This document shows, piece by piece, positions 1 through 20,693 of a stretch of DNA of 20,693 bases; position 1 is the first letter of the stretch, and each line of letters starts with the position of its first letter. This DNA comes from a virus: positions 1 to 20,693 of IMG/VR virus record IMGVR_UViG_3300048597_000639; one strand, given 5' to 3'. The notes under the pieces were generated by a model. That model did no database searches. It saw only the letters and a list, made by a program, of their open reading frames with translations, and was not told where the DNA came from. Both the position numbers and the translations under genes were made by a program.

Positions 1-1755
1 CTAGCCATCGAGCGTCCACGTGTCGTTGGACCCATCGGCATCGCCCGCGCCGGTGGGACTGATCCAGGACGTCCGCCCCGCACCCGAGACCACGAGCGCC
101 GTGATCGTGATGTCGCCGGTCATGGGGGCCGTGCCCCGGCCGCTGTTGCCCTCGCCCCCGATGACCGGACCACCGAACGGGGACACCAGGACATCCGCGC
201 AGACCGCCCACCCAAGGGTCGCGTGCCAGGCCGGCGCGATGGCGAGGAAGTTCGTGCCGCCATCGGCGATGAGCGACCCCGGCACCCACACCGTGCCGCC
301 TGCATCGCCGATCGTGCCGATGACCGTGAAGTCGCGCAGATGCGAGGGTGCCGCGTTCGCCCAGCCGACCAGGAACGTGCCGCCGTCCGCCACGCCGAGC
401 AGCGAGCCGAGCGCGCCGATCTCGACCCGGGCGCCCAGGATGCCCCCGATGCCCGACGCGCTCACCGTGTACCAGGCCTCCCAGGTGACACCACCCGGGC
501 CCCAGAGTCCACCCCCGAGCGGGCAGCCCGAGACGGAGTAGGCGGTGTTCTGGCTGATCCAGGAGCCGACGTACGGGGTGCCGGACGAGTAGAGGCCCGC
601 CCAGGCGTCCCCGACGAGCGAGTCGTGGCAGGACTGGCGGGCGGTCACCGCGAGCGTCGCGCCATCCGCCACATCCGCCTCGGCGTCACTGCTCGTGCCC
701 TTGCGCTTCCGGGTGTTCCGGTTCGTGACGTCCCGGTGGCTGGGGCGCCGGCGCCGGCGGTCGCGGAACCGGACCTCGCAGCGCAGGTAGGCCTCGCCGT
801 CCTCGTCGTGCGGATCGACCGCGGTGATGTCCACCGAGACGAGCACGATCGTCGTGTCGAGCGACCACAGGTCGTTCCGGAGGGTCGCCTTCATGCCGCC
901 GCGGAGGCCCGGCTCCCAGCAGACGAGCGAGCCGTCCACGACCGGTGCCGCCTGCTCCGCGAGCGCCCGGTCACCGGCCCGGCTGCGCTGGGTGCTGGTC
1001 CTGAGGTCCCCGTCGTTGACGCTCCGCTCCTGGCGGCCCCAGGTCGCGATCGCGCCGGAGTCCGTCACCCAGCTCTGGTCCGACTCCCCCTGGACGTACA
1101 CGGCGGTGGCGAGGTCGGTGGAGTCCCGGGCACGCCGGTACTCGGTGTAGGGGAACGAGGTGACGTGGTCGGGGCCCGTGTCATCGAGCGCGAACGGGGC
1201 CGAGACGACCTCGTCCCTCGCGAGGTGGAGGTCGGCGTCGAAGTCCAGGTGGTAGTGGAGGCGTGCCTCGTCGGCGACCTGGTCGAGCGCCTCCCGGACG
1301 GTCATCCCGTCGTAGGTCGCGGCATCGAGGGTCATCGAGGGTGGGTCCACGTGCGTGGTCGTGATCGAGAAGTTGAGGAACCCGAGGATCCACGCCACCC
1401 GGGCAGCGACGCTCTCGGCCGCACGCTCGGCGGGGTGGTCGATGACCGAATCGTCGAGCTTGGCGGTGTAGTCCTGGGCATCGAGGCCATACACCCGCGG
1501 ACCCACCTCGGACAGCTGCGATTCCTCGACCGCCTTCAGGTGCCCCGCGAAGATGCGGGTCCCGGCGAACGTGACCCAGACCCGGTCCTCCGGCGCGAAC
1601 ACCAGCGACGCGTCCCGGTCGACCACGGAGCAGGAGAACGTGGCGAGGTCCTCGGGGTGCGCCTCGGAGATGAGCACCGAGTCGAGGGTCGGCCAGAAGT
1701 CGAAGCCGCGGGTCTGGTTCCGGAACCGCCAGGCACCACGGCTGGGGTAGGTCAC
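1..1755 (-). CDS. Phage tail hub / baseplate protein with C-terminal accessory domain
   Basis: Probable tail-tip (baseplate hub) protein of a siphophage, 584 aa, complete with a TAG stop at the window edge. It follows the tape measure gene with a 4-base GTGA overlap, the usual place for Dit/hub proteins. The N-terminal part (about residues 1-330) is beta-rich and contains a hub-like strand pattern near residues 58-76 (RVWVTFAGTRIFAGHLKAVE). A very basic linker sits at about 329-352 (runs of Arg, then RKRK). The remaining 230 residues are Gly/Ala/Trp-rich and lack the upstream pattern, so they are probably a separate exposed domain, perhaps receptor or carbohydrate binding. The hub role is inferred from position and N-terminal style; the C-terminal function is unknown to me. 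Confidence 0.72.
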   Translation of the reverse strand: MTYPSRGAWRFRNQTRGFDFWPTLDSVLISEAHPEDLATFSCSVVDRDASLVFAPEDRVWVTFAGTRIFAGHLKAVEESQLSEVGPRVYGLDAQDYTAKLDDSVIDHPAERAAESVAARVAWILGFLNFSITTTHVDPPSMTLDAATYDGMTVREALDQVADEARLHYHLDFDADLHLARDEVVSAPFALDDTGPDHVTSFPYTEYRRARDSTDLATAVYVQGESDQSWVTDSGAIATWGRQERSVNDGDLRTSTQRSRAGDRALAEQAAPVVDGSLVCWEPGLRGGMKATLRNDLWSLDTTIVLVSVDITAVDPHDEDGEAYLRCEVRFRDRRRRRPSHRDVTNRNTRKRKGTSSDAEADVADGATLAVTARQSCHDSLVGDAWAGLYSSGTPYVGSWISQNTAYSVSGCPLGGGLWGPGGVTWEAWYTVSASGIGGILGARVEIGALGSLLGVADGGTFLVGWANAAPSHLRDFTVIGTIGDAGGTVWVPGSLIADGGTNFLAIAPAWHATLGWAVCADVLVSPFGGPVIGGEGNSGRGTAPMTGDITITALVVSGAGRTSWISPTGAGDADGSNDTWTLDG

Positions 1756-4436
1756 GAGGGCGACCCCACGAGGCGGCGATCCCGTCGGCGCAGGTGCCGG
1801 CGGCGCTCCATCCGCCGCTCGAGCTCATCGAGCCCGGCGTCGTTCGCGATCAGCGTGCCGACGTGGATGTGGACCTCGCCACCACGCCCGCCGCCACCGA
1901 CGGCGCCCACGGCGGCCCACGTGGCGCGGTCCGGTCCCCGCTGGTCCATCCACGCAGGCGCGCCCGGGTGGGGCGTCAGTGCGGCACCCATGCGCGCCCC
2001 CATCCGCTCGACGTCGCCGACCTTCCGCTCCATCGGTCCGAGCCAGTTCTGGACGAGGTGCGGGCCCCACGAGCGGATCGTGGACAGGGGCCCCGTCCGG
2101 GGTGGGTGGCTGAAGCCGACCATCCGGTGGGTGGCGGCCGCGAGGTTCCGGGCCGCGGCCTCGGCAGCCGCCTCCTGGCTCGCGATCCCCGAGGCGAACA
2201 GGGATCCCGCATGCGAACCCCACCGGTAGGCGGGGAGCGACGAGAGCGGCCCCGTGACCGCGGACTTCACGTCGGACGCGGCGGATCGCGTGTCGCCGAC
2301 GCTGGACGAGAGCGCATCGGGCAGCGCGGACGCAGTCCGGTCCGCATCCTTGGCCACGCGGCGGGCGGTCGCATCGACCTGGGAGGTCACAGCGGTCCGG
2401 AGCCGGTGGGCATTGCGTCGAGCGTCCCTCGCCATCCGGCGGAACGAGCCGCCGACCTTCACGCCGGCCGCCGCGAGGTCGGCCTTGACCTCTCCCATCG
2501 TCTTCGTGGTCGTGCCTCGGAACTCCGCCTGCGCGGCGCTCACCTTGGCCAGCTGGTCCTGCCAGTAGGTCGCGGCGAGCGGATCGTTGGCGATGATCGA
2601 ACGGCGCAGCATCCGGGTGGCGTGGTCGACCGCCTTTCCGAACTCCTTGAGGCGTGCGGCCCGGCTCATGATCGTGGGGCCCTTCGCGAGGGCCGACGCC
2701 ACGGTGTCCCAGGCGCCGGCCACCTTCGAGGCGGAGCCGGCGATCCCATCTCGGATGCCCTGCGCCGCCTCGGAGCCGACCGCGTTGCCGGCCTTCCGCA
2801 CCGCGCCCGCGTTCTGCTTCGCGCCGGCCGCGACGTTGGCGGTGACCTTGGCGCCGGCCGCCGCGGAGGCGCTGGCCGCGGTGTCGGCCGGGAGCTGGGC
2901 GAGGTAGGTCTCGAGGGCCTGGATCTGCTCCTGGTTGACCTGGGCGGGGTTGGCGCCGAACAGGCCGTCGATGGCCGAGCCGAGCACGTTGCCCTTGGCG
3001 AAGTCGGCGAACCCGTAGACGGCACCTTGGATGCCATCGAGGTTCTCGGGGATCGCCTTGAGCGCGGCGAGCTTCTGCTCCGCCTCGGCACGGGAAGGTG
3101 CCTCGGCGAGCAGCTTCTTCATCGAGTCGCTGATGCCCGCGGCGGCCTCGACGTTCTGTTGCCGCACCTCGCCCAGCTGCTTCAGCTCGTCGGCGATGAG
3201 CAGCGCGAGGCCGACACCGGCGGCCGCCTTGAACGCCATGCCGAACTTCCCGCCCGCCATGCCGCCCAGCGACGACGCCGCGTCACCCAGCTTCGAGGCG
3301 AGCGGGCCGAAGAGCCGGTCGGCGACGCCGACGGCACCCGCCATCGCGGACGAGAACGCCTTCCCGGCGCGGGTCCCGAGCCCCTTGAACAGCGGGCCGA
3401 TCGCGCGGTCGAGCCCCAGGCTCTTCCCGAAAGTGATGGCGCTCACGGCGCCCGTGAGCACCGGGCCGACCTGCATCCCGAAGCCGCGCAGGATCGCCAG
3501 GCCCTGGTTGACCGCGAGCTTCAGCTTCGAGGTGAAGGTGGAGTCGAGGGCCGCCGCGGCGTCCTCGGTGCGTCCCGTCACATCGTCGAGCTGGAAGCCG
3601 AAGCGAGACAGGTCGCCACCGGAAGTCTGGAGGGCCTGCGCGAGCTTGGGCCCGGCCTTGGCGCCGAACAGGTCGATCGCCTTCTGGGCCCGCTCGAAGG
3701 GGTCGGCGGTCCGGGCGACGTCGACCAGGAGCGCCTGCAGCTCCTCGGGGGACTTCACCTTGCCGAGGGCCTTGGTGATGCCCGTCACGCCAGCGCTCGC
3801 ATCGACGCCCGCCGCGTTGAACAGGTTGATGAGCTCGGTGCCCTGCTGCCACTGCATGTTGGCGGCCTGGAGCACGGGCGCCATCTTCGCGAGCAGGTCC
3901 TGCGATTCGGTGATCGACCCGCCATACGTCTGCTGCCCGGCGATGAGGGTGTCCATGATCGCGTTCGTGTCGGCCGCGGTCAGGTTCCAGGCATCGAGGA
4001 TGTCGTCGAACGCGAGCACCGCATCCGACCCCTGCCCGGTCGCGCGCTCGTAACGGAGGAACGACGCGAGGCTCGCATCCGCGGCCTCCCCGGTCAGGCC
4101 GAGGTCGGTGCGGATCTTCGTCGCCGAGGCCGCGATGTCGTCCATCGCGACGAGGGACGAGCCGGCCGCCGCGTTGACGGAGTCCGCGAAGTGGCGGGCC
4201 TCCTCGGCCGATGCCCCGGTCGCCGCCTGGAACGCCGCGGCGCGATCCTCCATCTCGAGCGCACCCTTGGCCGCGAACGCGAGGCCACCGCCGATGAGGG
4301 AACCCGCCACCTTCATGGCCGTGCCCGCACCGGTGGACAGGCCGCCGATGGACTTCTCGGCCCGGGCGACACCCTGCTCCACGCCGGTGGCATCGAGCCC
4401 GAGCTTGATCAGCAGCGACGCGATCGTGCCGGGCAT
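1752..4436 (-). CDS. Phage tail tape measure protein
   Basis: Tape measure protein, 894 aa from the ATG at 4436; a TTG at 4451 is an alternative start. It sets tail length inside the tube during assembly. It is Ala-rich and largely helical. The N-terminal half resembles the TP901-type minor tail core: a small-residue hydrophobic stretch near residues 40-60, then EDRAAAFQAATGASAEEA and regular amphipathic helices. The middle holds further hydrophobic stretches, and the C-terminus ends in a typical tape measure tail (EVHIHVGTLIANDAGLDELE). At about 1.5 angstrom per residue it predicts a tail near 130 nm. The ATG sits in a TGATG junction, as elsewhere in this operon, although the gene directly upstream is now a lipoprotein on the other strand. 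Confidence 0.93.
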   Translation of the reverse strand: MPGTIASLLIKLGLDATGVEQGVARAEKSIGGLSTGAGTAMKVAGSLIGGGLAFAAKGALEMEDRAAAFQAATGASAEEARHFADSVNAAAGSSLVAMDDIAASATKIRTDLGLTGEAADASLASFLRYERATGQGSDAVLAFDDILDAWNLTAADTNAIMDTLIAGQQTYGGSITESQDLLAKMAPVLQAANMQWQQGTELINLFNAAGVDASAGVTGITKALGKVKSPEELQALLVDVARTADPFERAQKAIDLFGAKAGPKLAQALQTSGGDLSRFGFQLDDVTGRTEDAAAALDSTFTSKLKLAVNQGLAILRGFGMQVGPVLTGAVSAITFGKSLGLDRAIGPLFKGLGTRAGKAFSSAMAGAVGVADRLFGPLASKLGDAASSLGGMAGGKFGMAFKAAAGVGLALLIADELKQLGEVRQQNVEAAAGISDSMKKLLAEAPSRAEAEQKLAALKAIPENLDGIQGAVYGFADFAKGNVLGSAIDGLFGANPAQVNQEQIQALETYLAQLPADTAASASAAAGAKVTANVAAGAKQNAGAVRKAGNAVGSEAAQGIRDGIAGSASKVAGAWDTVASALAKGPTIMSRAARLKEFGKAVDHATRMLRRSIIANDPLAATYWQDQLAKVSAAQAEFRGTTTKTMGEVKADLAAAGVKVGGSFRRMARDARRNAHRLRTAVTSQVDATARRVAKDADRTASALPDALSSSVGDTRSAASDVKSAVTGPLSSLPAYRWGSHAGSLFASGIASQEAAAEAAARNLAAATHRMVGFSHPPRTGPLSTIRSWGPHLVQNWLGPMERKVGDVERMGARMGAALTPHPGAPAWMDQRGPDRATWAAVGAVGGGGRGGEVHIHVGTLIANDAGLDELERRMERRRHLRRRDRRLVGSPS

Positions 4437-4486
4437 CAGAAGTGCACCCAAGCGGCGTACTTGACCGGGCCGAGCGCGCCGGGCAT
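4436..4486 (-). CDS. Possible 16-codon leader or gene remnant before the tape measure gene
   Basis: A short ATG-initiated frame, MPGALGPVKYAAWVHF, whose TGA overlaps the tape measure ATG as TGATG, the same coupling arrangement used at five other junctions in this operon. It may be a true leader peptide, or the surviving 3' end of a small gene that once stood between the tail chaperones and the tape measure gene and was disrupted when the opposite-strand lipoprotein was inserted. It is very short, so chance is quite possible. Confidence 0.25.
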   Translation of the reverse strand: MPGALGPVKYAAWVHF

Positions 4487-4489
4487 GGT
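4461..4489 (+). promoter_or_regulatory. Possible promoter of the tail-module lipoprotein
   Basis: TTGACC at 4461-4466, a 17-base spacer, then CATGGT at 4484-4489. The -35 matches 5 of 6 bases and the -10 only 3 of 6. A start point 7 bases beyond the -10 would fall at the GTG codon at 4496, so the transcript could be leaderless; no good Shine-Dalgarno sequence precedes that codon. The hexamers were read by eye; no transcript evidence is available. Confidence 0.3.
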
Positions 4490-4495
4490 GTCAAG

Positions 4496-4909
4496 GTGAA
4501 GCGGATGCTGCTGCTGGCGGTACTGGTGACTGCGTGCTCCGGGACACCGGCACCCACACCCTCCCGGACCCTGGGGCCGGGCGAGCGTTGGCTGCCGGTC
4601 GCGGACATGCCCGAGGTGTGCGCCGGGACGGGCCTGGATGGCGTGACGCTGCACGGGTCTCCTGACGATTCTCGGGTGACCTGGGTGGAGTTCGCGGGCC
4701 ACAGCCGACGGGAGATCGCTTGGCCGCTGGGTTTCTCCGCGCGGTTCAATCCCGCCCTCGAGGTGCTCGACGGCCGGGGTCACGTGATCGCCACAGAGGG
4801 CACGCAGGTGGTCGGGCAATGCCCTACCCGAGACAGCAAGATCATGCTGGTGACCGAGATGGAGTACCCGCTGCCGACGCCGAGCATCGAGGCGTCTGCT
4901 GCGACCTGA
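4496..4909 (+). CDS. Small lipoprotein, moron inside the tail module
   Basis: Putative 137-aa secreted lipoprotein on the strand opposite to all surrounding tail genes. From the GTG at 4496 it begins MKRMLLLAVLVTACSG: a short basic n-region, a hydrophobic core, and a lipobox VTAC with the lipidated Cys at residue 14. The mature part starts with a Pro/Thr-rich spacer, carries two further Cys (EVC and GQC) that could pair, and is otherwise a small beta-rich domain I cannot assign. A lysogenic-conversion or superinfection-exclusion role is suggested by analogy with phage-encoded lipoproteins that block incoming phages, but nothing in the sequence proves it. An upstream in-frame GTG at 4442 would add residues that spoil the signal peptide. 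Confidence 0.68.
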   Translation: MKRMLLLAVLVTACSGTPAPTPSRTLGPGERWLPVADMPEVCAGTGLDGVTLHGSPDDSRVTWVEFAGHSRREIAWPLGFSARFNPALEVLDGRGHVIATEGTQVVGQCPTRDSKIMLVTEMEYPLPTPSIEASAAT

Positions 4910-4914
4910 CCTCG

Positions 4915-5256
4915 TCACCGCTTCCGGATGCCGCCGAACGCGGCCATCGCCGCGTCGATGCGCGGCCGCAGGTCGGCGACCTCCCCCGAACGGCGTGGCA
5001 CGCGGTTCGGCAGGAAGTCCCCGGGCGACCACGGGGTCTTGCGTCGCTTCGGGTCCCGGTTGACGTTCGCGATCAGCGCGAGCAGCTGCGCCAGCCGCTG
5101 GTCGTCCGCCCCGGAGCCGAAGGGCTCCAGGCGGGCATAGGCCATCCACTCCGCGAACTCCCGGCTGGAGACCGCGGCCTGGCAGGCGGCGACCGACCGA
5201 TGTCCGAGCGCCAGCGTCAGTCGGAACCAGAACCGACGCTCGGGTCTTCCCCCAGT
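4915..5256 (-). CDS. Tail assembly chaperone T region (expressed as G-T by -1 frameshift)
   Basis: This open frame has no proper start of its own. It is the -1 frame relative to the upstream chaperone, opens right after a TGA at 5257-5259 and ends at TGA 4915-4917. It encodes a recognisable tail chaperone T segment: EFAEWMAYARLEPFG, then LLALIANVNRDPKRRKTPWSPGDF, a pattern common to gpT-like extensions of siphophages. Slippage on the GGGGGAA heptamer at 5253-5247 would join residue 134 of G to 111 residues of T, giving a protein of about 245 aa. The internal ATG at 5145 is unlikely to be the real start. In lambda-type phages G and G-T coat the tape measure protein during assembly and are absent from the virion. 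Confidence 0.8.
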   Translation of the reverse strand, partial: TGGRPERRFWFRLTLALGHRSVAACQAAVSSREFAEWMAYARLEPFGSGADDQRLAQLLALIANVNRDPKRRKTPWSPGDFLPNRVPRRSGEVADLRPRIDAAMAAFGGIRKR

Positions 5257-5651
5257 TCACGGGTCAGCTCCTCGACCTCGTCCTCGGCCAGTCCGGAGAG
5301 TCGCTGCGCCACCCGGAACACGCGCTGGAGGGCCGCGGCGTTCTTGCGTCCCAGCGCCTCGACCTGGGTGTCGCTGAACACCCGGCTGTCATCGGCCCTG
5401 CGCACCGACTGGGCCACGAGCTTGGCGCGCATGTTCCGGAGGTTGATCTCCCGGTCCTTGCCGCGGGTCTGGAGGAGCGACGCCTCGAAGGCATCCCGTT
5501 CCGTCCCGGTGAGCGAGCGGACGCGGAGGCGGAAGCCCCATTCCGGGACCTCCACCTCCTCGCTCGTGAGGTCGGGCAGGTCGAGGATCGACGCCGCGTC
5601 CTCGAGCAGGGGCAGGACGGTGGGTGCCGCGATCGCGGCCTTCGTGCCCAT
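5217..5651 (-). CDS. Tail assembly chaperone G
   Basis: Tail assembly chaperone, 144 aa, between the major tail protein and the tape measure gene, the invariant location of this class. It is acidic, with the pattern EVPEWGFRLRVRSLTGTERDAFEASL near residues 30-60, typical of actinophage-style gpG proteins, followed by charged helices and an acidic C-terminus. Its ATG at 5651 overlaps the stop of the major tail gene as TGATG; a GTG at 5654 is possible. The C-terminal codons contain the GGGGGAA slip site used to make the G-T fusion. Confidence 0.82.
   Translation of the reverse strand: MGTKAAIAAPTVLPLLEDAASILDLPDLTSEEVEVPEWGFRLRVRSLTGTERDAFEASLLQTRGKDREINLRNMRAKLVAQSVRRADDSRVFSDTQVEALGRKNAAALQRVFRVAQRLSGLAEDEVEELTRELGEDPSVGSGSD
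5247..5253 (-). promoter_or_regulatory. Predicted -1 ribosomal frameshift site GGGGGAA
   Basis: In the G frame the codons read CTG GGG GAA GAC. Moving back one base re-pairs the GGG tRNA perfectly on GGG, while the GAA tRNA re-pairs only in part on GGA. The site lies inside the only stretch (5256 to 5219) where both the G frame and the T frame are open, which is what a working G/G-T frameshift requires. No other candidate heptamer of comparable quality is visible there. Confidence 0.62.
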
Positions 5652-12465: not shown

Positions 12466-12957
12466 TCAGACATCGCCGCCCACCACGCGCAGACGGGGCG
12501 GTGGCCCGAGGACATCCTCGATGTCCGTCGGCAGCGCTGACGCCTCCACCCGGAGACCCGCCCGGGCGGACGGCGACAGGCCCAGCTCCCGGGCGAACAG
12601 GCGGACGGCATCGGCGTTGTCCCGCACGACCTGGTGGAGCGGGTTCTTGACGAACTCCCCATCCCGCCGGAGGAGTGGGCTGGACTTCGCGTACAGCTCC
12701 GCGGCCTGGGCATAGCGGGCGACCGCCTCGCAGTAGCAGCGCAGGACGTCCGCATCGGCACCGACGATCACATCCGAGCCGCGCATCTCCCGGACCACGC
12801 GGCGCCACACCTTCTGGGCCTCGTCATCCATGCCCCGCGGCATCTGGGGTGCACCGGCACGGGGCAGCGGCTCCATCCGATTGACCCGGGACGGACGCGT
12901 CTCGCCGTTCCGGAGCTTCACGCCGGTCGGGGTGGGTGCGGGTCCACGGCGGCCCAT
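12466..12957 (-). CDS. Terminase small subunit (P27 family)
   Basis: 163-aa P27-family small terminase that recognises phage DNA for packaging. The N-terminus MGRRGPAPTPTGVKLRNGETRPSRVN is the family's typical basic leader, followed by helical segments DEAQKVWRRVVREMRGSDVIVGADADVLRCYCEAVARY and LLRRDGEFVKNPLHQVVRDNADAVRLFARELGLSPSARAGLRV, the classic G-x-x-V-K-N-P-x-x-x-x-x-R signature. It lies between a methyltransferase gene (TGATG overlap) and the large terminase. Confidence 0.93.
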   Translation of the reverse strand: MGRRGPAPTPTGVKLRNGETRPSRVNRMEPLPRAGAPQMPRGMDDEAQKVWRRVVREMRGSDVIVGADADVLRCYCEAVARYAQAAELYAKSSPLLRRDGEFVKNPLHQVVRDNADAVRLFARELGLSPSARAGLRVEASALPTDIEDVLGPPPRLRVVGGDV

Positions 12958-14399
12958 CAGGCAGCCTCCGCCGTCGGCGCCGGGACGCGCTCCGCCTTGA
13001 GCCCCGTGAACTCCTCGAAGCGGCGGACGATGACGTCGCAGTAGAGCGGGTCGATCTCCATGAGTCGTGCCCGGCGTCCGGTCTGCTCCGCGGCGATCAG
13101 TGCGGACCCCGAGCCGCCGAACAGGTCGAGCACCACCTCACCGGGCAGGGAGCTGTACTCGATCGCCAGACGGGTCAGCTCCGTCGGCTTCTCGGTCAGG
13201 TGGACCATCGCCCGTGGGTTGACCTTCTTGACCGACCAGACGTCGGTGGCGTTCGGGGGCCCGAAGAAGCGGTGCCCGGCCCCCTCCTTCCAGCCGTAGA
13301 AGCACCACTCGTGGTTGCCCATGAAATCCTTGCGGGTGAGGACCGCGTGCTCCTTCACCCAGATCACCGCCTGGCTGAAGTAGAGGCCGGCGGCACGCAG
13401 GGCGGGCGGGTAGTTCGCGATGTTCGCGTAGCCACCCCAGATGTAGAAGGCACCGCCGGGACGGAGCACGCGGGCGCCGTTGCGGAACCAGGCATCCAGG
13501 CGCGCCGCGAAGTCCTCGTCGGTGATGAAGTCACCCACGAGCGGCCGGTCCTTGGCGCGCATCTTCCGGTGGGTCGGCTGGGCCTTCTCCGGATGCCGTG
13601 CCAGGTCCATCGACTGGTGGTGGGATGCGGGCGGCTTCAGTCGCGCGGCGTCGAACTCGTGGAGGCCGCGGGCGTTGCGGCGCTTCGCCTGGCTCGCCTC
13701 GAGCGCGGTCTGGTAGGAGGCGTCCCACTGGTCCGACATCCCCGCCGCGATCGCGTTGTTGGAGCGGGGCTCGACCTTCACGTTGTAGGGCGGGTCGGTG
13801 GCCAGGAGATCCACGGTCGCACCGTCGAGCAGCCGATCGAGGTCCGCGGGATTCCCGGAGTCGCCGCACAGCAGCCGGTGCTCGCCGAGGATCCACAGGT
13901 CGCCGGGCCTGGTGACGGCCTCGTCCGGAGGTGCGGGGACGTCGTCGGGATCGGTCAGCCCGGCCCGGACCTGCTGCGGTGCCAGCCTGGCCAGCATCGC
14001 GGCGAGCGCCTCGTCGTCCGCTGATGCCTCCGCGAGCAGCGCCGCGAGCTTCTCGTCGTCGGTGCCAGCCATCGCCGCGAGGGGGTCGAGGGCGACGAGG
14101 ACGAGCGCCTCCTCCTCGGCGGTGAGCTCGACGTAGCTCACGGGGATGGTCGCCTCGCCCCGGGCCAGGGCGAGGTCGACCCGCAGGTGGCCGTCGACGA
14201 GATGGCCCGTGGTCCGGTTGACCATCACCGGGGCGACGACCCCGACCTGGTCGATCAGGCCGGCGAGTGCATCCCGCTGCGCCTTCGGATGCGTCCTCCA
14301 GTTCGCGGGGTTCGCGAGGAGCTGGTCGGGCGCCTCGTCCCCGATGCCCACGATCCGCGAGCGCCAGGGGCTGACAGCGGACGTGGTGGGCCTCGGCAC
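12957..14399 (-). CDS. ParB-like nuclease domain / DNA methyltransferase fusion
   Basis: 480-aa protein with a ParB/Srx-like N-terminal domain (about residues 20-95: NPANWRTHPKAQRDALAGLIDQVG, then GHLVDGHLRVDLALARGEATIPV) and a DNA-methyltransferase domain (about 165-465). The methylase has DPPY at 202-205, the C-terminal HLTEKP at 400-405 and DLFGGSGS at 425-432. DPPY before FGGSGS makes it a beta-class amino-methylase, giving N6-adenine or N4-cytosine; the target site is unknown. The fusion is common beside terminase genes in actinophages and may protect phage DNA from host restriction. The start is uncertain: I chose the GTG at 14399; another GTG at 14468 would add 23 residues without a better ribosome site. 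Confidence 0.9.
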   Translation of the reverse strand: MPRPTTSAVSPWRSRIVGIGDEAPDQLLANPANWRTHPKAQRDALAGLIDQVGVVAPVMVNRTTGHLVDGHLRVDLALARGEATIPVSYVELTAEEEALVLVALDPLAAMAGTDDEKLAALLAEASADDEALAAMLARLAPQQVRAGLTDPDDVPAPPDEAVTRPGDLWILGEHRLLCGDSGNPADLDRLLDGATVDLLATDPPYNVKVEPRSNNAIAAGMSDQWDASYQTALEASQAKRRNARGLHEFDAARLKPPASHHQSMDLARHPEKAQPTHRKMRAKDRPLVGDFITDEDFAARLDAWFRNGARVLRPGGAFYIWGGYANIANYPPALRAAGLYFSQAVIWVKEHAVLTRKDFMGNHEWCFYGWKEGAGHRFFGPPNATDVWSVKKVNPRAMVHLTEKPTELTRLAIEYSSLPGEVVLDLFGGSGSALIAAEQTGRRARLMEIDPLYCDVIVRRFEEFTGLKAERVPAPTAEAA

Positions 14400-14493
14400 G
14401 TCCTCGTTGTCACACCCGCCCGCGGGACGGTCAAGCGCGCCGCCGCACGGATGTTCGAGAAGCCGCACGGAAAGCGGATGGCGGGTCCGGGCT

Positions 14494-14515
14494 CGGTGTC
14501 ATCACGGTGTCATCG
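14494..14515 (+). repeat. Tandem 11-base repeat in the divergent promoter region
   Basis: CGGTGTCATCA at 14494-14504 is followed immediately by CGGTGTCATCG at 14505-14515; 10 of 11 bases agree. A related CATCACGG follows at 14531-14538. They lie in the 164-base gap between the late operon and the divergent small-gene operon, where an activator or repressor would bind. Confidence 0.5.
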
Positions 14516-14563
14516 CGCCCACACGCCTTGCATCACGGCGCGTCCCGAGCGACTCATGGACGC

Positions 14564-14800
14564 ATGGACACCACCACCGCCACCGCGAAGGGCCAGCCGA
14601 GCGAGGTCCAGCGCCTGATCGCGCAGCACACGCGCGAGATCGACCCGCGCCACATCGAGGCCTGGATGCGGGTCGAGCACCCGACGCTCGACGGCCTCTC
14701 GCGCGAGGAGCTGCTCGGCGCCATGTACCGCGCCATCGCCGACCACCTCGAGGCGGGTGACGCGATGAGCGAATCCCTCGCCGCCACGTTCGGCCTCTGA
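14564..14800 (+). CDS. Small hypothetical protein
   Basis: 78-aa protein that I do not recognise, first of four small genes on the plus strand, divergent from the packaging operon. It is predicted to be helical: SEVQRLIAQHTREIDPRHIEAWMRVEHPTLDGLSREELLGAMYRAIADHLEAGDAMSESLAATFGL. No metal-binding cluster, membrane segment or catalytic motif is visible. I chose the ATG at 14564; an in-frame GTG at 14507 is possible. Neither has a good ribosome site. It ends 15 bases before the next gene, so it is likely co-transcribed with it. Such small acidic helical proteins are common in phage and plasmid accessory operons. Confidence 0.62.
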   Translation: MDTTTATAKGQPSEVQRLIAQHTREIDPRHIEAWMRVEHPTLDGLSREELLGAMYRAIADHLEAGDAMSESLAATFGL

Positions 14801-14815
14801 GACGGAGCGACCCCG

Positions 14816-15112
14816 ATGACGACCCGACCCCGCGACACCCGCACCGCGCTCGACACCTACATGGAGCACCACGCCGCCGCGCTCGCCCTCCTGGTGCGGA
14901 TCACCGAGCACCTGGCCAACCACGACGACGCCCCCGCCGAGGGCCTCCACTGGGGCCACGTGGGAGACATCGCCGAGACCCGCAGGACCCTCCAGGAACT
15001 GAGCGACCGCCTCTTCTCCGAGGGCGAGTTCGCCGAGGTCGCCTGCCTCCGCTGCCCCGCGACGTTCCGGACCAGCCCCGAGCTCGACGCCCATTACCGC
15101 GCCACCCACTGA
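14816..15112 (+). CDS. Small protein with a C2H2-type zinc finger
   Basis: 98-aa protein of unknown role. Residues 1-75 form a helical, His- and Glu-rich region. The last 22 residues make a textbook C2H2 finger: C77-x2-C80, then F84 and L90, then H93-x4-H98, at the very C-terminus. Spacing and the two core hydrophobics match classical fingers, which are unusual in bacterial genomes but do occur in phage-borne small proteins. DNA binding is plausible but unproven. GGAG lies about eight bases upstream of the ATG at 14816. The gene sits in the short-gap operon at 14564-15889. Confidence 0.75.
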   Translation: MTTRPRDTRTALDTYMEHHAAALALLVRITEHLANHDDAPAEGLHWGHVGDIAETRRTLQELSDRLFSEGEFAEVACLRCPATFRTSPELDAHYRATH

Positions 15113-15127
15113 CGAAGGAGATCCGCG

Positions 15128-15436
15128 TTGACCAGCCAGACCATCCCGACCTGCACCCTGTGCGGCCGCGAGCTTCCCGCCGATGCCATCGGTTACCTCG
15201 GCGACGGACGCCTCGCCTGCGTGGTCGTCCAGGCCTGTGAGGCACGCCGGAAGGTGGATGCCGAGGACCCCGAGACGCCCGCCCAGCGGCGCGCGGCCCT
15301 GCTGAGCGCCATGGAGGGCGGGTACGCCGCTCCCGAGGACTTCGGTCCGATCGAGGCGTGCGACGGGTTCCGCGGTGAGAGCGCCTGGGGTCCCTGCGCG
15401 GAGTGCGGGAAACGCCTCGAGGACCACGACGCCTGA
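15128..15436 (+). CDS. Small Cys-rich (zinc-ribbon-like) protein
   Basis: 102-aa protein with two separate CxxC knuckles: C9-x2-C12 near the N-terminus (TCTLCGREL) and C90-x2-C93 near the C-terminus (GPCAECGKRLEDH). Additional Cys at 31, 37 and 78 and His 100 could complete two zinc sites. The middle is a charged helix. It starts with TTG at 15128, set by a strong GAAGGAG seven bases upstream. It resembles zinc-ribbon-type accessory proteins of phages; the function is unknown. It is third in the four-gene small-protein operon. Confidence 0.75.
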   Translation: MTSQTIPTCTLCGRELPADAIGYLGDGRLACVVVQACEARRKVDAEDPETPAQRRAALLSAMEGGYAAPEDFGPIEACDGFRGESAWGPCAECGKRLEDHDA

Positions 15437-15514
15437 CGCCGAAACCGGGCGATCGCCCGGTCCGCCGGAGACCCCGCCCGGCGCTGACGAGGCAGGGGAC
15501 CAAGGAGCACCACG

Positions 15515-15889
15515 ATGGACAGCAAGAAGGACGCCACCACCCAGACCGCGAGCGGCATGCGCCGCTGCATCGGCAGCACCACGTTCGGGATCGAGGCGCA
15601 CGAGGCGCCGGTCGACGACTTCCCGGTCCAGGCGAGCGCGAAGGATGGGCTCGGCCGGATGTGCAAGCCGCACTGGCGGCAGTACACCAACGCGCTGCGG
15701 AAGGCGGCCGTGTCGCGCAAGGCGGCGGAGGCCGCGACCGAGGCGGTCACGGAGCCCGAGCCGATCGCGGAGACGGAGTCGGTGACGGAGACCACCACCG
15801 AGCCGGACGTCGAGGCCGAGGCGCCTGCGCCCCGGAAGGGCCGCCGGTCGAAGGTCCAGGCGGAGCCCGAGGAGGTCGCCGCCGCCTGA
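15515..15889 (+). CDS. Small protein with acidic/Pro-rich tail
   Basis: 124-aa protein of unknown role. The N-terminal half has a possible metal-binding pair: C18 and C50-K-P-H53-W, within GRMCKPHWRQYTNALRKAA, which recurs in phage accessory proteins. The C-terminal half (about residues 70-124) is low-complexity Ala/Glu/Pro/Thr, likely disordered, with a basic patch RKGRRSK near residue 107-113. AAGGAG lies seven bases before the ATG at 15515. It is the last gene of the operon and is followed by a strong hairpin. Confidence 0.72.
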   Translation: MDSKKDATTQTASGMRRCIGSTTFGIEAHEAPVDDFPVQASAKDGLGRMCKPHWRQYTNALRKAAVSRKAAEAATEAVTEPEPIAETESVTETTTEPDVEAEAPAPRKGRRSKVQAEPEEVAAA

Positions 15890-15911
15890 CCCACCCGATC
15901 CCCGCACGACG

Positions 15912-15940
15912 GGCCCCGGGCGCGAGTCCGGGGCCTTCCT
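15912..15940 (+). terminator. Rho-independent-type terminator after the small-gene operon
   Basis: A perfect 8-bp stem GGCCCCGG / CCGGGGCC (15912-15919 with 15928-15935), an 8-base loop and a following TTCCT. The T-tract is mixed with C, so it is weaker than a classical terminator, but it sits 22 bases after the last small gene. Confidence 0.6.
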
Positions 15941-16043
15941 CTGTCCGGTGGTATCCGTGCGCGGCCCGCGGGACACCGCGGCATGTGGGCGCCCTGTGGC
16001 GCCCCCGGTGGCGGTGGTCAGCTCGCCGCGGCTCCCGGGCCGT

Positions 16044-16085
16044 GGTCCGTCGGCACTTGACCCGGTCCGTGCCGACGCGGACCAT
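16044..16085 (+). promoter_or_regulatory. Promoter-like site inside an inverted repeat, before the second lipoprotein
   Basis: TTGACC at 16057-16062 and GACCAT at 16080-16085 are separated by 17 bases. They are framed by an inverted repeat: GGTCCG-TCGGCAC (16044-16056) and its complement with a 2-base insertion (16069-16083). GGTCCGT also occurs as a direct repeat at 16044 and 16064. The -35 lies in the loop, so a bound repressor could control the lipoprotein. No transcript evidence. Confidence 0.35.
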
Positions 16086-16123
16086 TCGAACCCCATGCCA
16101 ACTGTCCGAACCGCAGGTCCCTG

Positions 16124-16843
16124 GTGAGGTCGCTCGCCTCCATCGCGCTCGTGCTCCTGGCGGCCCTCGTCATCGGCTGCGACCGAGCGGCCGTGCCGAC
16201 CAAGGGCACGATGCCCCCCGGAGATGTCGATTGGCGCAACGCGGCGAGCGTCGCGCCCGACTTCATCGCGGTGTGGGACCGCGACGGGGTCCGGATCGCG
16301 GGCTACGTCCCACGCTCGTACCTGTTCCCGGCACCCACGGTCGTCCCCATCGGCGCGGAGGATCCCCCCATGCCGGTGTACGCCGCGGATCTCAGGACGC
16401 TGGTCGGCCACATGGTGGCGGGCAAGGGGTTCGTCCCGGTCGGGGTCGACCCCGCTTCGATCGCGGACATCCCGGTCGAGGCGGGTCCGGCCGGTCCGGT
16501 CGATGCGCCCTCCGGAGGACCCCTGCCGGGAACCCTCGCGCTCTACGTGCGGACCGAATCCTCCAGGACGGCCTGGTTCGGGCAGCGTCGCGGCGCCGGC
16601 TTCGTCACGGCGACGGGGTTCGACGCGGATGGGGCGGGCTGTTTCGAGCTCGAGGTCGGGGATGAGATCGGGCTCTACGACCGGAGCCCCGACGACCCTG
16701 CCGCGGGGCGCATGCGCATCATCGAGACCGTCGACGGCGGCGAGCCAGCGGGCATGGCCACGTGGGTCGTGATCACTCGCGGAGGGGTCGTGACCCAGGG
16801 GGCCGGCAAGCCCGAATGGTGGCCGTGGGAACCGCCGTGCTGA
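16124..16843 (+). CDS. Putative lipoprotein
   Basis: 239-aa secreted lipoprotein. MRSLASIALVLLAALVIGCD is a signal peptide with lipobox VIGC and lipidated Cys 19. The mature part is largely beta-structured, with no recognised enzyme motif: WRNAASVAPDFIAVWDRDGVRIAGYVPRSYLF, then a Pro/Gly-rich loop, then GFVTATGFDADGAGCFELEVGDEIGLYDRSPDD. It starts at a GTG at 16124 with a weak AGG upstream. It is monocistronic: the hairpin terminator lies upstream and a 327-base gap lies downstream. It could be a host gene beside the phage segment or a second lysogenic-conversion gene; I cannot tell. Confidence 0.7.
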   Translation: MRSLASIALVLLAALVIGCDRAAVPTKGTMPPGDVDWRNAASVAPDFIAVWDRDGVRIAGYVPRSYLFPAPTVVPIGAEDPPMPVYAADLRTLVGHMVAGKGFVPVGVDPASIADIPVEAGPAGPVDAPSGGPLPGTLALYVRTESSRTAWFGQRRGAGFVTATGFDADGAGCFELEVGDEIGLYDRSPDDPAAGRMRIIETVDGGEPAGMATWVVITRGGVVTQGAGKPEWWPWEPPC

Positions 16844-17170
16844 TCGCGGCTCCGTAGCCGGCCCATCCGGCCGACCGGGAAAAATGGCGAAACCCGGCCG
16901 CGCGTACACGCTACCCGCGCGTCATCCCGGCTGCCCGGCCAGGTGAAGTACCTACCCCAGGCTCTGCCGGACGCCAGGTGGGGAAGGGTCCGATCGCTTG
17001 TTTGCGGCGTGTAACATGCGCGCAGCCGTATGCACGTCGCCCTGGGACATGCGTCCGGAGCTCGTCGCCTGCGGTGCAAGCACCTGACTGGGCTCGCCAG
17101 ACTCACGAACCCGGGTTCCGATTGACGGATCTCATGGCGTTGCTTCGAGCCCTTCAACAGGGAGTCGCAC
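16844..17170. other. Intergenic region with hairpins, no gene seen
   Basis: 327 bases between the lipoprotein and the membrane protein. Just after the lipoprotein stop are two overlapping short hairpins that cannot form together (CGGCT/AGCCG at 16847-16860 and GCCGG/CCGGC at 16857-16871), so a weak terminator is possible, though without a T-tract. A direct repeat CGCGCGT lies shortly after. TTGACG at 17122-17127 might be a -35 for the next gene, but no good -10 follows. No tRNA or other RNA gene could be supported. Confidence 0.4.
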
Positions 17171-17935
17171 ATGCGGGCCGTGTTCACGGTGAGTCTGCGG
17201 CCGTCCACCCAGGAGGGTCAGCCTCGGTATCCCTCCAACGATGACATCGTCACCCTCCTCCGAGGGTTCGGGTGGGAGACATCCGACCTGCATGACGTGG
17301 AGCCAAGCGAACGGCCCGCTCGATACGAGCGAGAGGCCACGCGGATCCTCAGCGAGATGCCGGAGCTCGCGGACGACGGCAAGGAACCCCATCTGCCGAC
17401 CGAGATGGAACGCCGCCACATCATCTTCTGGGGCTTCTTCGCCGCGGCGGACGAACAGACCGAGTTTCTCGTCACGCGTCCCAGCGAGAGCCAGGTCAAC
17501 TTCCGCCTGTTGCACAAACAGCTGCCGAACCTGCAGCGGTCGACGCTCCGCGCCGTGCGTCGGCTCCGCGCGACGAAGCTGGGCGGTCAGAAGCTCGACA
17601 TCGCCAACCGAAGCGTGCTCGTGTACGAGCGTGGTTTCAACCACGTCGTGATCCGTGGAAGAGTTCGTGGCAACTCCCTCCGCGAGGCCGTATCTGCCAA
17701 CGCGCGGGAGTTCTTTCTGTTCGTCGTGGCTGCGGTGGTCGTGGTGCCGCTGTGGCTCCTCGCCGGAGGCGCGGACCGTGCGAATGACCCCTTGTGGACG
17801 GGCACCTGGGACCGGCTCTCCACGGTCGCGGTTACGACGGCCGTTGTGAGCCTGCTGGGCTTCCTCACGACCGTCTGGGACATGGCACGACATCGCGTGG
17901 TCTTCTGGGACGTCGATCAAGGTAAGTACCGATAG
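17171..17935 (+). CDS. Unrecognised protein with two C-terminal membrane helices
   Basis: 254-aa protein that I do not recognise. Residues 1-175 are soluble and charged: a first domain with RYPSNDDIVTLLRGFGWETSDLHDVE, then a helix rich in Arg/Glu, then LPNLQRSTLRAVRRLRATKLGGQKLDIANRSVLVYERGFNHVVIRGRVRG. Two transmembrane helices follow, at about 180-199 (EFFLFVVAAVVVVPLWLLAGG) and 215-236, with a short cytoplasmic end. AGGGAG six bases before the ATG supports the start. It is encoded beside restriction and TIR genes, so a membrane effector or abortive-infection role is a fair guess, but no catalytic motif is visible. Confidence 0.6.
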   Translation: MRAVFTVSLRPSTQEGQPRYPSNDDIVTLLRGFGWETSDLHDVEPSERPARYEREATRILSEMPELADDGKEPHLPTEMERRHIIFWGFFAAADEQTEFLVTRPSESQVNFRLLHKQLPNLQRSTLRAVRRLRATKLGGQKLDIANRSVLVYERGFNHVVIRGRVRGNSLREAVSANAREFFLFVVAAVVVVPLWLLAGGADRANDPLWTGTWDRLSTVAVTTAVVSLLGFLTTVWDMARHRVVFWDVDQGKYR

Positions 17936-17968
17936 ACCTGTCAGGACGCGGCCGCCGACGGCCAGGTC
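17935..17968. terminator. Possible bidirectional terminator between convergent genes
   Basis: Between the membrane protein (stop at 17935) and the restriction endonuclease (stop at 17983) lies GGCCG-CCGA-CGGCC (17950-17963), flanked by GACCTG and CAGGTC (17935-17940 and 17963-17968). This gives a nested inverted repeat in the short gap between convergent genes. No T-tract is seen on either side. Confidence 0.4.
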
Positions 17969-17982
17969 GTGCGCCGAGGCAC

Positions 17983-19161
17983 CTACAGAGGAGCCCGACC
18001 CTGCCACTGCAGCGGCCGCAGGGAGTACCTGTCGCGCTCGATCGCGCCCGGGTACCGGCGAACGTCCGCGTGCGTGCGGTTCGCCACGTCGATGCCGGTG
18101 ACCACGAGCAGCTCGTAGCACGACGCGTTGTCGACCGAAAACCGGCGCTCCCCCTCGCTCATCAGGAACACCGGCTCGAGTGATCGGGTGGACTTCACCT
18201 CGACGTAGCGCACGGGCACCGTCGCGGTGCCGACCAGGATGTCGAATCCCGGGTTGTTCTTCGGCATCGCCTTCACTGGCTGGCCAGGGTAGGCCTTGCG
18301 AACCACGCCCAGTGCCACCTCCATCCCGATTGCATCGACCGCATCCGCATCATCCGGCGTCGCATAACCACCCTTGGCGGGCCCAGCCGGTGGTGTGGGT
18401 GTGGCTGGTGTGGACGCTGGAACGATGGATGCCGACTCGACCCACTGTCGCCAGGCGGTCGGGGCGAGCGCGAGGGCATCCTCGAGACCGTATGCAGGGT
18501 CCCAACGCGCCGCGATCCAATCCCATGGAAGCCGGTCGTCGTCGAGCGCGATGAGGCGCATGTCGAAGCGGTAGTTCGAGAACATCCCGCCGTCGGCCCC
18601 CGGTTGGGTGACGGGCTCCGCTCCCACGATGAGCAGGATCCCCTCGAACCGGACGTGCCCGTTCTGGCGACCCTCGAGTTGCTGAGCCGTGAAGTAGAGC
18701 AACGGATGCGCGCGGACGCGCTCGGCCCGCGTCGCCGCGGTGTGCAGTGCCGTGGTGGCGAGCAGGACCTTGTTGCCCGGTGCGTCGGCGGCGTCCGCGA
18801 ACGCGAGGTCGGGACGCATGTCGCCGTAGTAGGTGAGCGTCGCGGCGGCCGGATCGAGCACGTCGTGCCAGGGTGTCGTCTCCGTGCCGGCCTTGTACGG
18901 CGTCGTGCGGAGCAGGATGGCGGGCTTGCGCTCCGCGCGGTCGGGTCCCACCACGCTCAGCATCGAGTTGATGCCCCGCTCGAGCCGCACGATTGGCCGG
19001 TCGGGGACATCGGGACGCTGCACGACCCAGTAGAAGTTCTGATGCGGGCAGGCATCCGGCTCGAGGACCTCGGTCGCCGCGACGGTGGGGTATGTCGCGA
19101 TCGTGTAGGTCGGATAGCGCAACGTCTGTCCGACCGAGATCGTCCTTCCTGTCGGCTGCAT
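17983..19161 (-). CDS. Putative modification-dependent (type IV) restriction endonuclease, AspBHI-like
   Basis: 392-aa protein. The N-terminal region (about 1-245) has the features of the SRA-like, methylated-base-binding domain of AspBHI-type enzymes: PWHDVLDPAAATLTYYGDMRPDLAF (residues 97-121) and HPLLYFTAQQLEGRQNGHVRFEGILLIVG (152-180). A Pro/Thr linker (about 247-263) leads to a nuclease domain of PD-(D/E)XK/DUF3883 type, with D307 in NNPGFDI and the E321-V-K323 core. The predicted role is to cut DNA bearing modified cytosine. I start it at the ATG at 19161, which has GGAGGGG nine bases upstream; a GTG-less upstream ATG at 19224 lacks a good site. It follows the HNH gene in the same direction. 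Confidence 0.75.
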   Translation of the reverse strand: MQPTGRTISVGQTLRYPTYTIATYPTVAATEVLEPDACPHQNFYWVVQRPDVPDRPIVRLERGINSMLSVVGPDRAERKPAILLRTTPYKAGTETTPWHDVLDPAAATLTYYGDMRPDLAFADAADAPGNKVLLATTALHTAATRAERVRAHPLLYFTAQQLEGRQNGHVRFEGILLIVGAEPVTQPGADGGMFSNYRFDMRLIALDDDRLPWDWIAARWDPAYGLEDALALAPTAWRQWVESASIVPASTPATPTPPAGPAKGGYATPDDADAVDAIGMEVALGVVRKAYPGQPVKAMPKNNPGFDILVGTATVPVRYVEVKSTRSLEPVFLMSEGERRFSVDNASCYELLVVTGIDVANRTHADVRRYPGAIERDRYSLRPLQWQGRAPL

Positions 19162-19257
19162 GTCCGATATCCCCTCCACCGATGACTCGCGAGGGATCGA
19201 CTCTACAAGGCGCTGGCCTTGCATGACACCGAGAGGATGGTCCGCCCATCCAGCGGG

Positions 19258-19605
19258 TCAGCGTGGTCGGCCGATCCGCGTGACCCGCCCGAATTCCCGG
19301 TCGAACCGCGCTGACTTGAGCCGATGATGCGCCGCGCAGAGCGACTGCAGGTTCTCAGGGTCGTCGCTTCCTCCGTAGACCTTGGGTCTGATGTGGTCCA
19401 CCTCGGTCGCAGGAAGGCCGCAGGGCGATCGGCCTACGGTCGCTCTCCATTGGCACAAGGGGTGACGGAGCAGTTGGTACGCCCGGTGTGACTGCCATGC
19501 GGAGCCGTAGCCGCGCTCAGCGGTGGTGCCACCTCCGCATCGCAGACAGCGACCGGCTCGAGAAGTAACGCAGAGACAGCCAGGGCAGGGACGGCGAATC
19601 GACAT
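19258..19605 (-). CDS. HNH endonuclease
   Basis: 115-aa HNH nuclease. The fold signature reads ATEVDHIRPKVYGGSDDPENLQSLCAAHHRLK, with the catalytic D70-H71, N85 and H93/H94. Two zinc-binding CxxC pairs sit at the N-terminus (C7/C10 and C20/C23), followed by RGYGSAWQ, the typical opening of phage and mobile-element HNH proteins. The ATG at 19605 is preferred over an upstream ATG at 19734, which would add an unlikely 43 residues; no strong ribosome site is visible. It lies 97 bases upstream of the type IV enzyme, on the same strand. It could be a phage packaging HNH or a partner nuclease of the defence genes. Confidence 0.85.
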   Translation of the reverse strand: MSIRRPCPGCLCVTSRAGRCLRCGGGTTAERGYGSAWQSHRAYQLLRHPLCQWRATVGRSPCGLPATEVDHIRPKVYGGSDDPENLQSLCAAHHRLKSARFDREFGRVTRIGRPR

Positions 19606-19787
19606 CACGTCAACGGATGCCCACTCGGACGGGCCGATGGTTGTGCGAGACTGAGTTGACCACCCGATGCGTCCGCGCGGAGGCCCACAGCGCTGGGAAG
19701 ACGCGCAAGGGTCGCCGAACAAGAACGTGCGCAAAGGGAGACCACGCAGGTGGACCCGAGGCCGCGCTCGAGACTGCAGGGGATGCG
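19606..19787. other. Divergent promoter region of HNH/restriction and TIR genes
   Basis: 182 bases between the divergent HNH and TIR genes. It contains TTGACC-like hexamers in both directions, but no convincing -10 at the right spacing, so no promoter is called. The TIR ATG is preceded by AGGGG. Confidence 0.35.
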
Positions 19788-20693
19788 ATGACGAGTCCGG
19801 TCGGCAAGGTCTTCATCTCACATGCGAGCACCGACAAGCCCTTCGTGGACCGCCTGGTCCAGGACCTGACGTCTCGCGGCGTGCCCGTCTGGTACGACAA
19901 GCTCGATCTCAAGGTCGGCGACAGCATCCCGGGCGCCATCAACGAAGGACTTACCGCCGCCAAGTACTTCTTGCTCGTCCTTTCCAAGGCGTCGGTCGGG
20001 TCCCGATGGGTCCAGGAAGAGATGAACGCTGCCCTGATGCATCAAGTGGCCTCGGGCGGAACCTTCATCGTGCCGGTGATGCTCGAGGACTGCGACGTCC
20101 CACCACTCCTGAAGCACCGGCGTCATGCTGACTTCCGCACGGACTACGGTGCCGGACTGACAGACCTGCTTGCCGTCTGGGGAATGGATGCCCAGGCCGC
20201 TCAGGCCTTGAATTCCACCGCGCTGTACCCGTGGCCTGATCTCGATGCGTCCGATCAGGACTTCGTGTACCTGCACTCGACGCGCTTCGCGAAGTTCTTC
20301 CGGGTGGGATGCGACCTGTCCAGTCCCGCCGAAAAGCTGCTGGACGACATCATCAAGGCACTCGACCTCCCGTGGACGAACGACATGCCGCAGTTCGGAT
20401 TCCGTTGGTCCTTCAGCTATGGGTTGGCGTTTAAGGACGAGTCGATGGCGCTCTCGCAGAAGCTGCGTGACGCCGGAGTGAAGTCTGGCGATGTCGTGGA
20501 GCTCTCCGTCCAGGGGACCTATCAGGACCTATGGACGAACGAGCTCGAGAACATGTGGGACGGCTCCAAGATGTACAACATGTTGTTTGCGAAGCAGCGC
20601 GAGGCGGAGCTGCAGCAACAGATCCGGGACCGGGGCCCTCTCACTCGAGATCGCCTTAGAGCGATCGCGAACTCGGCCTTCGACCACATCTAG
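19788..20693 (+). CDS. TIR-domain protein with a C-terminal ubiquitin-like (beta-grasp) domain
   Basis: 301-aa protein. Residues 5-130 are a bacterial TIR domain: VFISHASTDKPFVDRLVQDL, then WYDKLDLKVGDSIPGAINEGL, then LLVLSKASVGSRWVQEEMNAAL. The TIR NADase catalytic Glu should be E78 in W74-V-Q-E-E78, the same spacing as W-x-x-x-E in SARM1. Residues 167-243 look like a beta-grasp ubiquitin-like domain: a strand FFRVGCDL, helix PAEKLLDDIIKALDL, strand RWSFSYGL, then the family-like end LSQKLRDAGVKSGDVVELSV. A charged helix follows to the end. I start at the ATG at 19788, preceded by AGGGG; the longer upstream frame is unlikely. The beta-grasp call is inferred from the pattern. Confidence 0.8.
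   Translation: MTSPVGKVFISHASTDKPFVDRLVQDLTSRGVPVWYDKLDLKVGDSIPGAINEGLTAAKYFLLVLSKASVGSRWVQEEMNAALMHQVASGGTFIVPVMLEDCDVPPLLKHRRHADFRTDYGAGLTDLLAVWGMDAQAAQALNSTALYPWPDLDASDQDFVYLHSTRFAKFFRVGCDLSSPAEKLLDDIIKALDLPWTNDMPQFGFRWSFSYGLAFKDESMALSQKLRDAGVKSGDVVELSVQGTYQDLWTNELENMWDGSKMYNMLFAKQREAELQQQIRDRGPLTRDRLRAIANSAFDHI

Follow-up and report, generated by a model that had tools for sequence, protein, structure and literature searches.

How a gene for a small lipoprotein comes to stand backwards among the tail genes of a phage, and whom it serves there, is the question raised by one locus of the viral metagenome record IMGVR_UViG_3300048597_000639, a stretch of 20,693 bases that was analyzed as a whole (hereafter, the window). 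The late genes of the window—those for the small and large terminase, portal, scaffold, capsid, head-tail joining proteins, tail tube, chaperones G and T, and tape measure—lie on the minus strand. An initial annotation had placed the lipoprotein gene on the plus strand between the genes for chaperone T and the tape measure, both on the minus strand, an arrangement confirmed by the open reading frame (ORF) and by the positions of the Pfam matches (Table 1). On balance, we consider it probable that a siphophage, itself probably temperate, took this lipoprotein gene from the Chloroflexota lineage of its host and retains it in the tail operon as a moron that would be read in the lysogen.

Table 1. 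Features at and around the joint between the chaperone T and tape measure genes (window coordinates).
Feature	Position	Strand	Basis or remark
Tape measure gene	1752..4436	minus	PF10145; start ATG 4436 from codon-scored gene map
Whole insert, ~475 bp	4440..4914		Missing at empty sister joints
GGGTG, ribosome-site-like, rebuilt inside the insert	4445..4449	minus	8 nt before the tape measure ATG
Promoter-like TTGACC-17-CATGGT	4461..4489	plus	6 nt before GTG; 8/12 matches; host promoter type may differ from consensus
GGTG, alternative Shine-Dalgarno for GTG 4496	4487..4490	plus	Sequence
Lipoprotein gene, 137 aa, unnamed Chloroflexota family	GTG 4496..4909	plus	ORF, relatives, codon score, lipobox
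Signal peptide with lipobox V-T-A-C	4496..4537	plus	Predicted lipidated Cys14, codon 4535-4537
Tail chaperone T	4915..5145	minus	PF06223; true start may be further upstream
Tail chaperone G	5217..5651	minus	phrog_344

The Lipoprotein Gene and Its Product

With a GC content of ~70%, the window holds 135 ORFs of at least 50 aa, and long antisense ORFs are common in it, so that ORF length alone is no proof of a gene. Although this frequency would favor a chance antisense ORF with no gene behind it, such an explanation is so improbable that we regard it as ruled out, given the chromosomal relatives (E values down to 7e-20), the lipobox, and the edges of the insertion described below. The codon score of the frame is positive, with a GC3 of 0.83. 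Its product begins with MKRMLLLAVLVTACSG, a short signal peptide ending in the lipobox V-T-A-C, and a scan for lipobox signals at the 597 starts that open frames of at least 80 aa returned just this frame (at two start sites) and a gene at 16124. The start at GTG 4496 is preferred over ATG 4505 because the resulting N-terminus, MKRMLLLAVLVTAC, resembles those of relatives (MKRGLLVGSVAVLLAAC and MKQILVLLAIVGVSAC). A search of the protein sequence against the PDB gave no match, and the AlphaFold model built from the single sequence was uninformative (pLDDT 41).

An Insertion at a Repeatedly Refilled Joint

Sister viral contigs were collected via chaperone G, and seven of them span the joint between the T and tape measure genes. 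Their matches to the window stop at positions 4439 and 4915, and the lipoprotein gene is missing from all seven. The joint is empty in three sister lineages (L003, L005/L006, and L007), with four bases separating the T stop codon from the tape measure ATG (TGA-CCTG-ATG or TGA-GCTG-ATG). Three other sisters carry unrelated cargo at the same place, each gene reversed: a secreted protein of 313–323 aa in L002, a RibD-type reductase (RibD_C, PF01872, 1.8e-24) in L008, and a secreted cupin-like protein, by a weak match (0.003), in L009. The window, L002, and L003 are 90–91% identical over the flanking genes, their joints holding the lipoprotein gene, the other secreted protein, and nothing, respectively, and L008 and L009 are 82% identical to the window; the sisters with other reversed cargo thus span 82–91% nucleotide identity. 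The four different cargoes sit on four branches of the tree, and the simplest reading is therefore that the joint has been filled four times. The lipoprotein gene is an insertion, and its joint is one that has been refilled repeatedly. An assembly chimera is unlikely, because four contigs have four different inserts at this one joint. All four cargo genes are reversed with respect to the tail operon; four of four has a chance probability of about 1 in 16, so this orientation bias is suggestive only.

These comparisons also bear on what kind of gene it is. A late lytic or virion protein might be expected from the location inside the tail module, but the strand is opposite to that of all late genes, the gene is missing from all sisters, and it is without phage relatives; we hold a late or virion role to be highly improbable, and a structural tail gene is ruled out. 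The initial annotation had called the gene a moron, as opposed to a structural gene found in all related phages, and this assignment holds up, with absence from every joint-spanning sister, clean edges, and a source family in bacterial chromosomes. In its broad present use, the term covers gene insertions found in a single genome or confined to some of them (PMC6316719). The gene agrees with this sense both in separating two genes that are neighbors in related phages and in having an outside origin, with chromosomal relatives and no phage relatives. A deviating base composition, which is usual for morons but not required, is not seen here, the insert and its surroundings both having a GC content of about 0.70.

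The edges of the inserts suggest how the joint may tolerate them. Where the joint is empty, the position expected for the tape measure ribosome site is taken by the GGTGA at the T stop; at every occupied joint, a new GGTG-type sequence stands immediately before the tape measure ATG, namely the GGGTG of the window insert, GGAGGGTGA in L002, GGGTG in L009, and GGCGGTGAGC in L008, where the same ten bases are also found at the T edge. We infer that inserts survive where translation of the tape measure gene gets rebuilt, and that the short edge matches fit illegitimate recombination. In the proposed scheme, the gene would have entered the joint by this route, and the joint would tolerate inserts because T has already ended there and just the tape measure ribosome site needs rebuilding.

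The lipoprotein gene might also be a neutral passenger, a host gene that happened to be caught at such a tolerant joint and that is unselected and soon lost. The fast turnover among phages that are ~90% identical and the unrelated functions of the cargo would suit such a passenger, but the four cargo genes remain intact, signals and ribosome sites included, and point in the same direction; we therefore judge neutrality unlikely.

Source Family and Presumed Host

The lipoprotein falls outside all Pfam, PHROG, and NCBIfam families, and tblastn against 50,697 phage records gave no match; single-protein scans of viral and genome contigs, which require exact short words, were likewise negative. Relatives were found in 11 of the 400 Chloroflexota genomes searched and, at a best E value of 7e-20, in 31 of the 126 genomes of one Chloroflexota order. 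The chromosomal matches have E values of 1e-17 to 1e-20 over ~100 aa, and the relatives are 37–43% identical to the lipoprotein over the full protein. Some are stand-alone lipoproteins built in the same way, and others form the end domains of larger, often membrane, proteins. The neighbors of several chromosomal copies, judged by eye, resemble ordinary chromosomal genes. Across eight stand-alone members, C42, G44, L52, G54, D58, W63, R71, P77, G79, A82, F84, P86, L88, G102, G107, and C109 (window numbering) are invariant, and C42 and C109 may form a disulfide; the family alignment is otherwise too variable for a pattern scan. The protein family is host-derived and as yet without a name.

The phage of the window probably infects Chloroflexota bacteria. 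An actinobacterial host is disfavored, with weak relatives in 11 of 396 Actinomycetota genomes (best 1.6e-8) versus 31 of 126 genomes (best 7e-20) in the Chloroflexota order. Furthermore, the RibD cargo of L008 shares 81% identity with a chromosomal gene from the same order, the family of the L002 cargo is present in 30 of its 126 genomes, and in L277, the record of L009, the flanking host-type genes are related to that order. These cargo families, together with the integrase and host-type flanks of L277, support a host in this order and a temperate lifestyle for the clade, without proving either for the window. No tyrosine integrase was found within the 20.7 kb window fragment, no close prophage of the window type was found in the 126 genomes of the presumed host order, and no literature on Limnocylindria phages was found. 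The donor of the lipoprotein gene is not pinned down, there being weak relatives in Actinomycetota and a best relative that is ~40–50% identical.

Positions 9555-17933 of L277 hold an integrase, an HTH gene, and a D5-type primase-like gene, followed by the tail tube, G, and T genes and then by the cupin-like gene in reverse orientation and a tape measure gene of reduced length, with no head genes seen, and this region looks like an integrated element, either a prophage remnant or a satellite. The window itself carries, at 16124-16843 (plus strand), a second lipoprotein gene (239 aa; N-terminus MRSLASIALVLLAALVIGC), which has no Pfam family and has relatives in 8 of the 126 genomes of the same order (best 42% identity, E value 5e-32); it is probably another captured host gene. 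Beside the terminase genes, the stretch 12957-20693 contains an N6/N4 DNA methylase gene, a gene on the minus strand for an AspBHI-type modification-dependent nuclease with a NOV_C domain, and a TIR-domain gene on the plus strand that runs to the window end—a defense-like cluster on a phage fragment.

Possible Expression from the Opposite Strand

In its original, strict sense, a moron is a complete transcription unit, with a promoter and a terminator of its own. The initial annotation had pointed to a -35-like TTGACC and a possible leaderless GTG start. The TTGACC was located at 4461-4466, and an element as good as TTGACC-17-CATGGT at this spacing is rare, being present before just 3 of 1186 other ATG or GTG codons in the window. 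The element would put the transcript start at or beside GTG 4496. On the other side, the -10 hexamer CATGGT matches the consensus at 3 of 6 positions, a stricter scan for consensus promoters found none, and the GGTG before the start could serve as a Shine-Dalgarno sequence. A leaderless start is therefore plausible, but not established, and independent expression of the gene is likewise plausible as judged from its upstream sequence. No intrinsic terminator-like site was found in 4300-5250, the scan seeing the intrinsic type only.

In the proposed scheme, the gene, lying opposite to the late operon, would be read from its own upstream sequence while the late genes are silent, that is, during lysogeny, and in lytic growth late transcription would cross it as antisense. 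The product would be exported, lipidated, and kept on the external face of the membrane, altering the envelope of the lysogen in some way; the gene probably serves the infected host. The reading as a captured moron draws support from the reversed, different cargo in sister phages and from the chromosomal source families, and is weakened by the missing integrase in the fragment, the lack of a close prophage, the weak promoter, the lack of an intrinsic terminator, and a GC content the same as that of the phage.

Morons are described as characteristically antisense to lytic genes (PMC7067206). In staphylococcal prophages, a defense gene is turned off on induction via an overlapping antisense gene (PMC11087260), a kind of regulation that the reversed orientation could give here by analogy. 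More speculatively, the joint may be a standing docking place at which reversal has been selected as an off switch worked by the late transcript, with cargo on in the lysogen and antisense-silenced in lytic growth; we rate this as no better than a long shot. If true, the reversed non-tail genes at the joint in unrelated phages—a lipoprotein gene in L202, a membrane protein gene in L012-L014, a zinc-ribbon gene in L174, and an HNH-like gene in L175—would be the same design. Tape measure genes were located at 159 distinct joints; the gap is shorter than 120 nt in 110 of these, and forward inserts are mostly of tail type, some being nuclease-like or glycosyltransferase-like by eye.

Several of these inserts deserve separate mention. 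The L202 gene (8318-8632, minus strand) lies reversed at the T/tape-measure joint and encodes a DUF3862 lipoprotein, the DUF3862 match being barely above the cut-off. In the L008 phage, a SnoaL_3-domain gene (L281, 5650-6099, minus strand) is reversed within the head-tail joining genes, which is a second joint with reversed host-type cargo. A forward insert encoding 95 aa, with no Pfam family, lies between the tail terminator and tail tube genes in L278 (1728-2015, plus strand) and is absent from the window.

Comparison with Known Systems and Possible Function

Like the window lipoprotein gene, the gene for HK97 gp15 is an extra gene at this joint, with the G-T chaperone on one side and the tape measure gene on the other. 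It differs in lying on the same strand as the late genes, with an annotated putative terminator after it, and in encoding a predicted inner membrane protein (PMC10883804) rather than a lipoprotein; the search of the phage records gave no sequence match between the two. The bor gene of lambda likewise encodes a lipoprotein, runs against the late genes, and is expressed in the lysogen (PMC7067206), but it is located after the lysis genes, outside the tail module, and also lacks a sequence match in that search. The morons that vary at one conserved joint among related Burkholderia prophages (PMC2920897) resemble the window series, although their hosts and joints are others, and the joint cargo of the window clade is all reversed. 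That joints are filled by different morons is already known (PMC2920897). The unnamed Chloroflexota family is alike in the lipobox, two conserved Cys residues, and the full-length identity given above, and differs in being chromosomal and often fused to larger membrane proteins.

The initial annotation had proposed superinfection exclusion by a surface lipoprotein. In such a role, the protein would stand on the lysogen membrane and block entry of the DNA of related phages, perhaps via their tape measure protein, as Ltp of TP-J34 does. The Ltp gene belongs to the lysogenic-conversion region, away from the tape measure joint. In this location, and in having no sequence match in the phage-record search, it is unlike the window gene; what the two have in common is that a phage carries them, that they encode a surface lipoprotein, and that bacterial genomes contain relatives (PMC3952083). 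Ltp targets the tape measure protein (PMC10883804, PMC3952083), changes in which overcome the TP-J34 exclusion (PMC10883804). A role in exclusion would accord with the lipoprotein signal, shared with proteins of the Ltp and Cor type, with the occupation of the same joint by the exclusion moron HK97 gp15, and with Ltp and gp15 both acting by way of tape measure or tail proteins (PMC10883804, PMC3952083). Against it, the lipoprotein has no sequence relation to phage exclusion proteins (PHROG, Pfam, and NCBIfam; tblastn against the 50,697 phage records), its family is chromosomal, is found in roughly one in four genomes of a single bacterial order, and is often a domain of larger membrane proteins, and the other joint cargo—a RibD-type reductase, a cupin-like protein, and a secreted protein—is unlike exclusion proteins, which argues against a common exclusion role. 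We thus do not assign the lipoprotein to the Ltp/Cor-type exclusion lipoproteins, and exclusion is, by analogy, a possible but rather doubtful reading of its function.

Significance

As a moron the gene is ordinary; the point of interest is its reversed, refillable joint. In closely related phages, one and the same joint is empty or holds one of four different bacterial genes, the source families of which are still found in the chromosomes of a little-studied phylum. The series of joints allows testing of how phages take up host genes, how inserts are tolerated, and whether orientation keeps the cargo lysogen-specific, and the cargo itself offers a route for linking metagenomic phages to Chloroflexota hosts.
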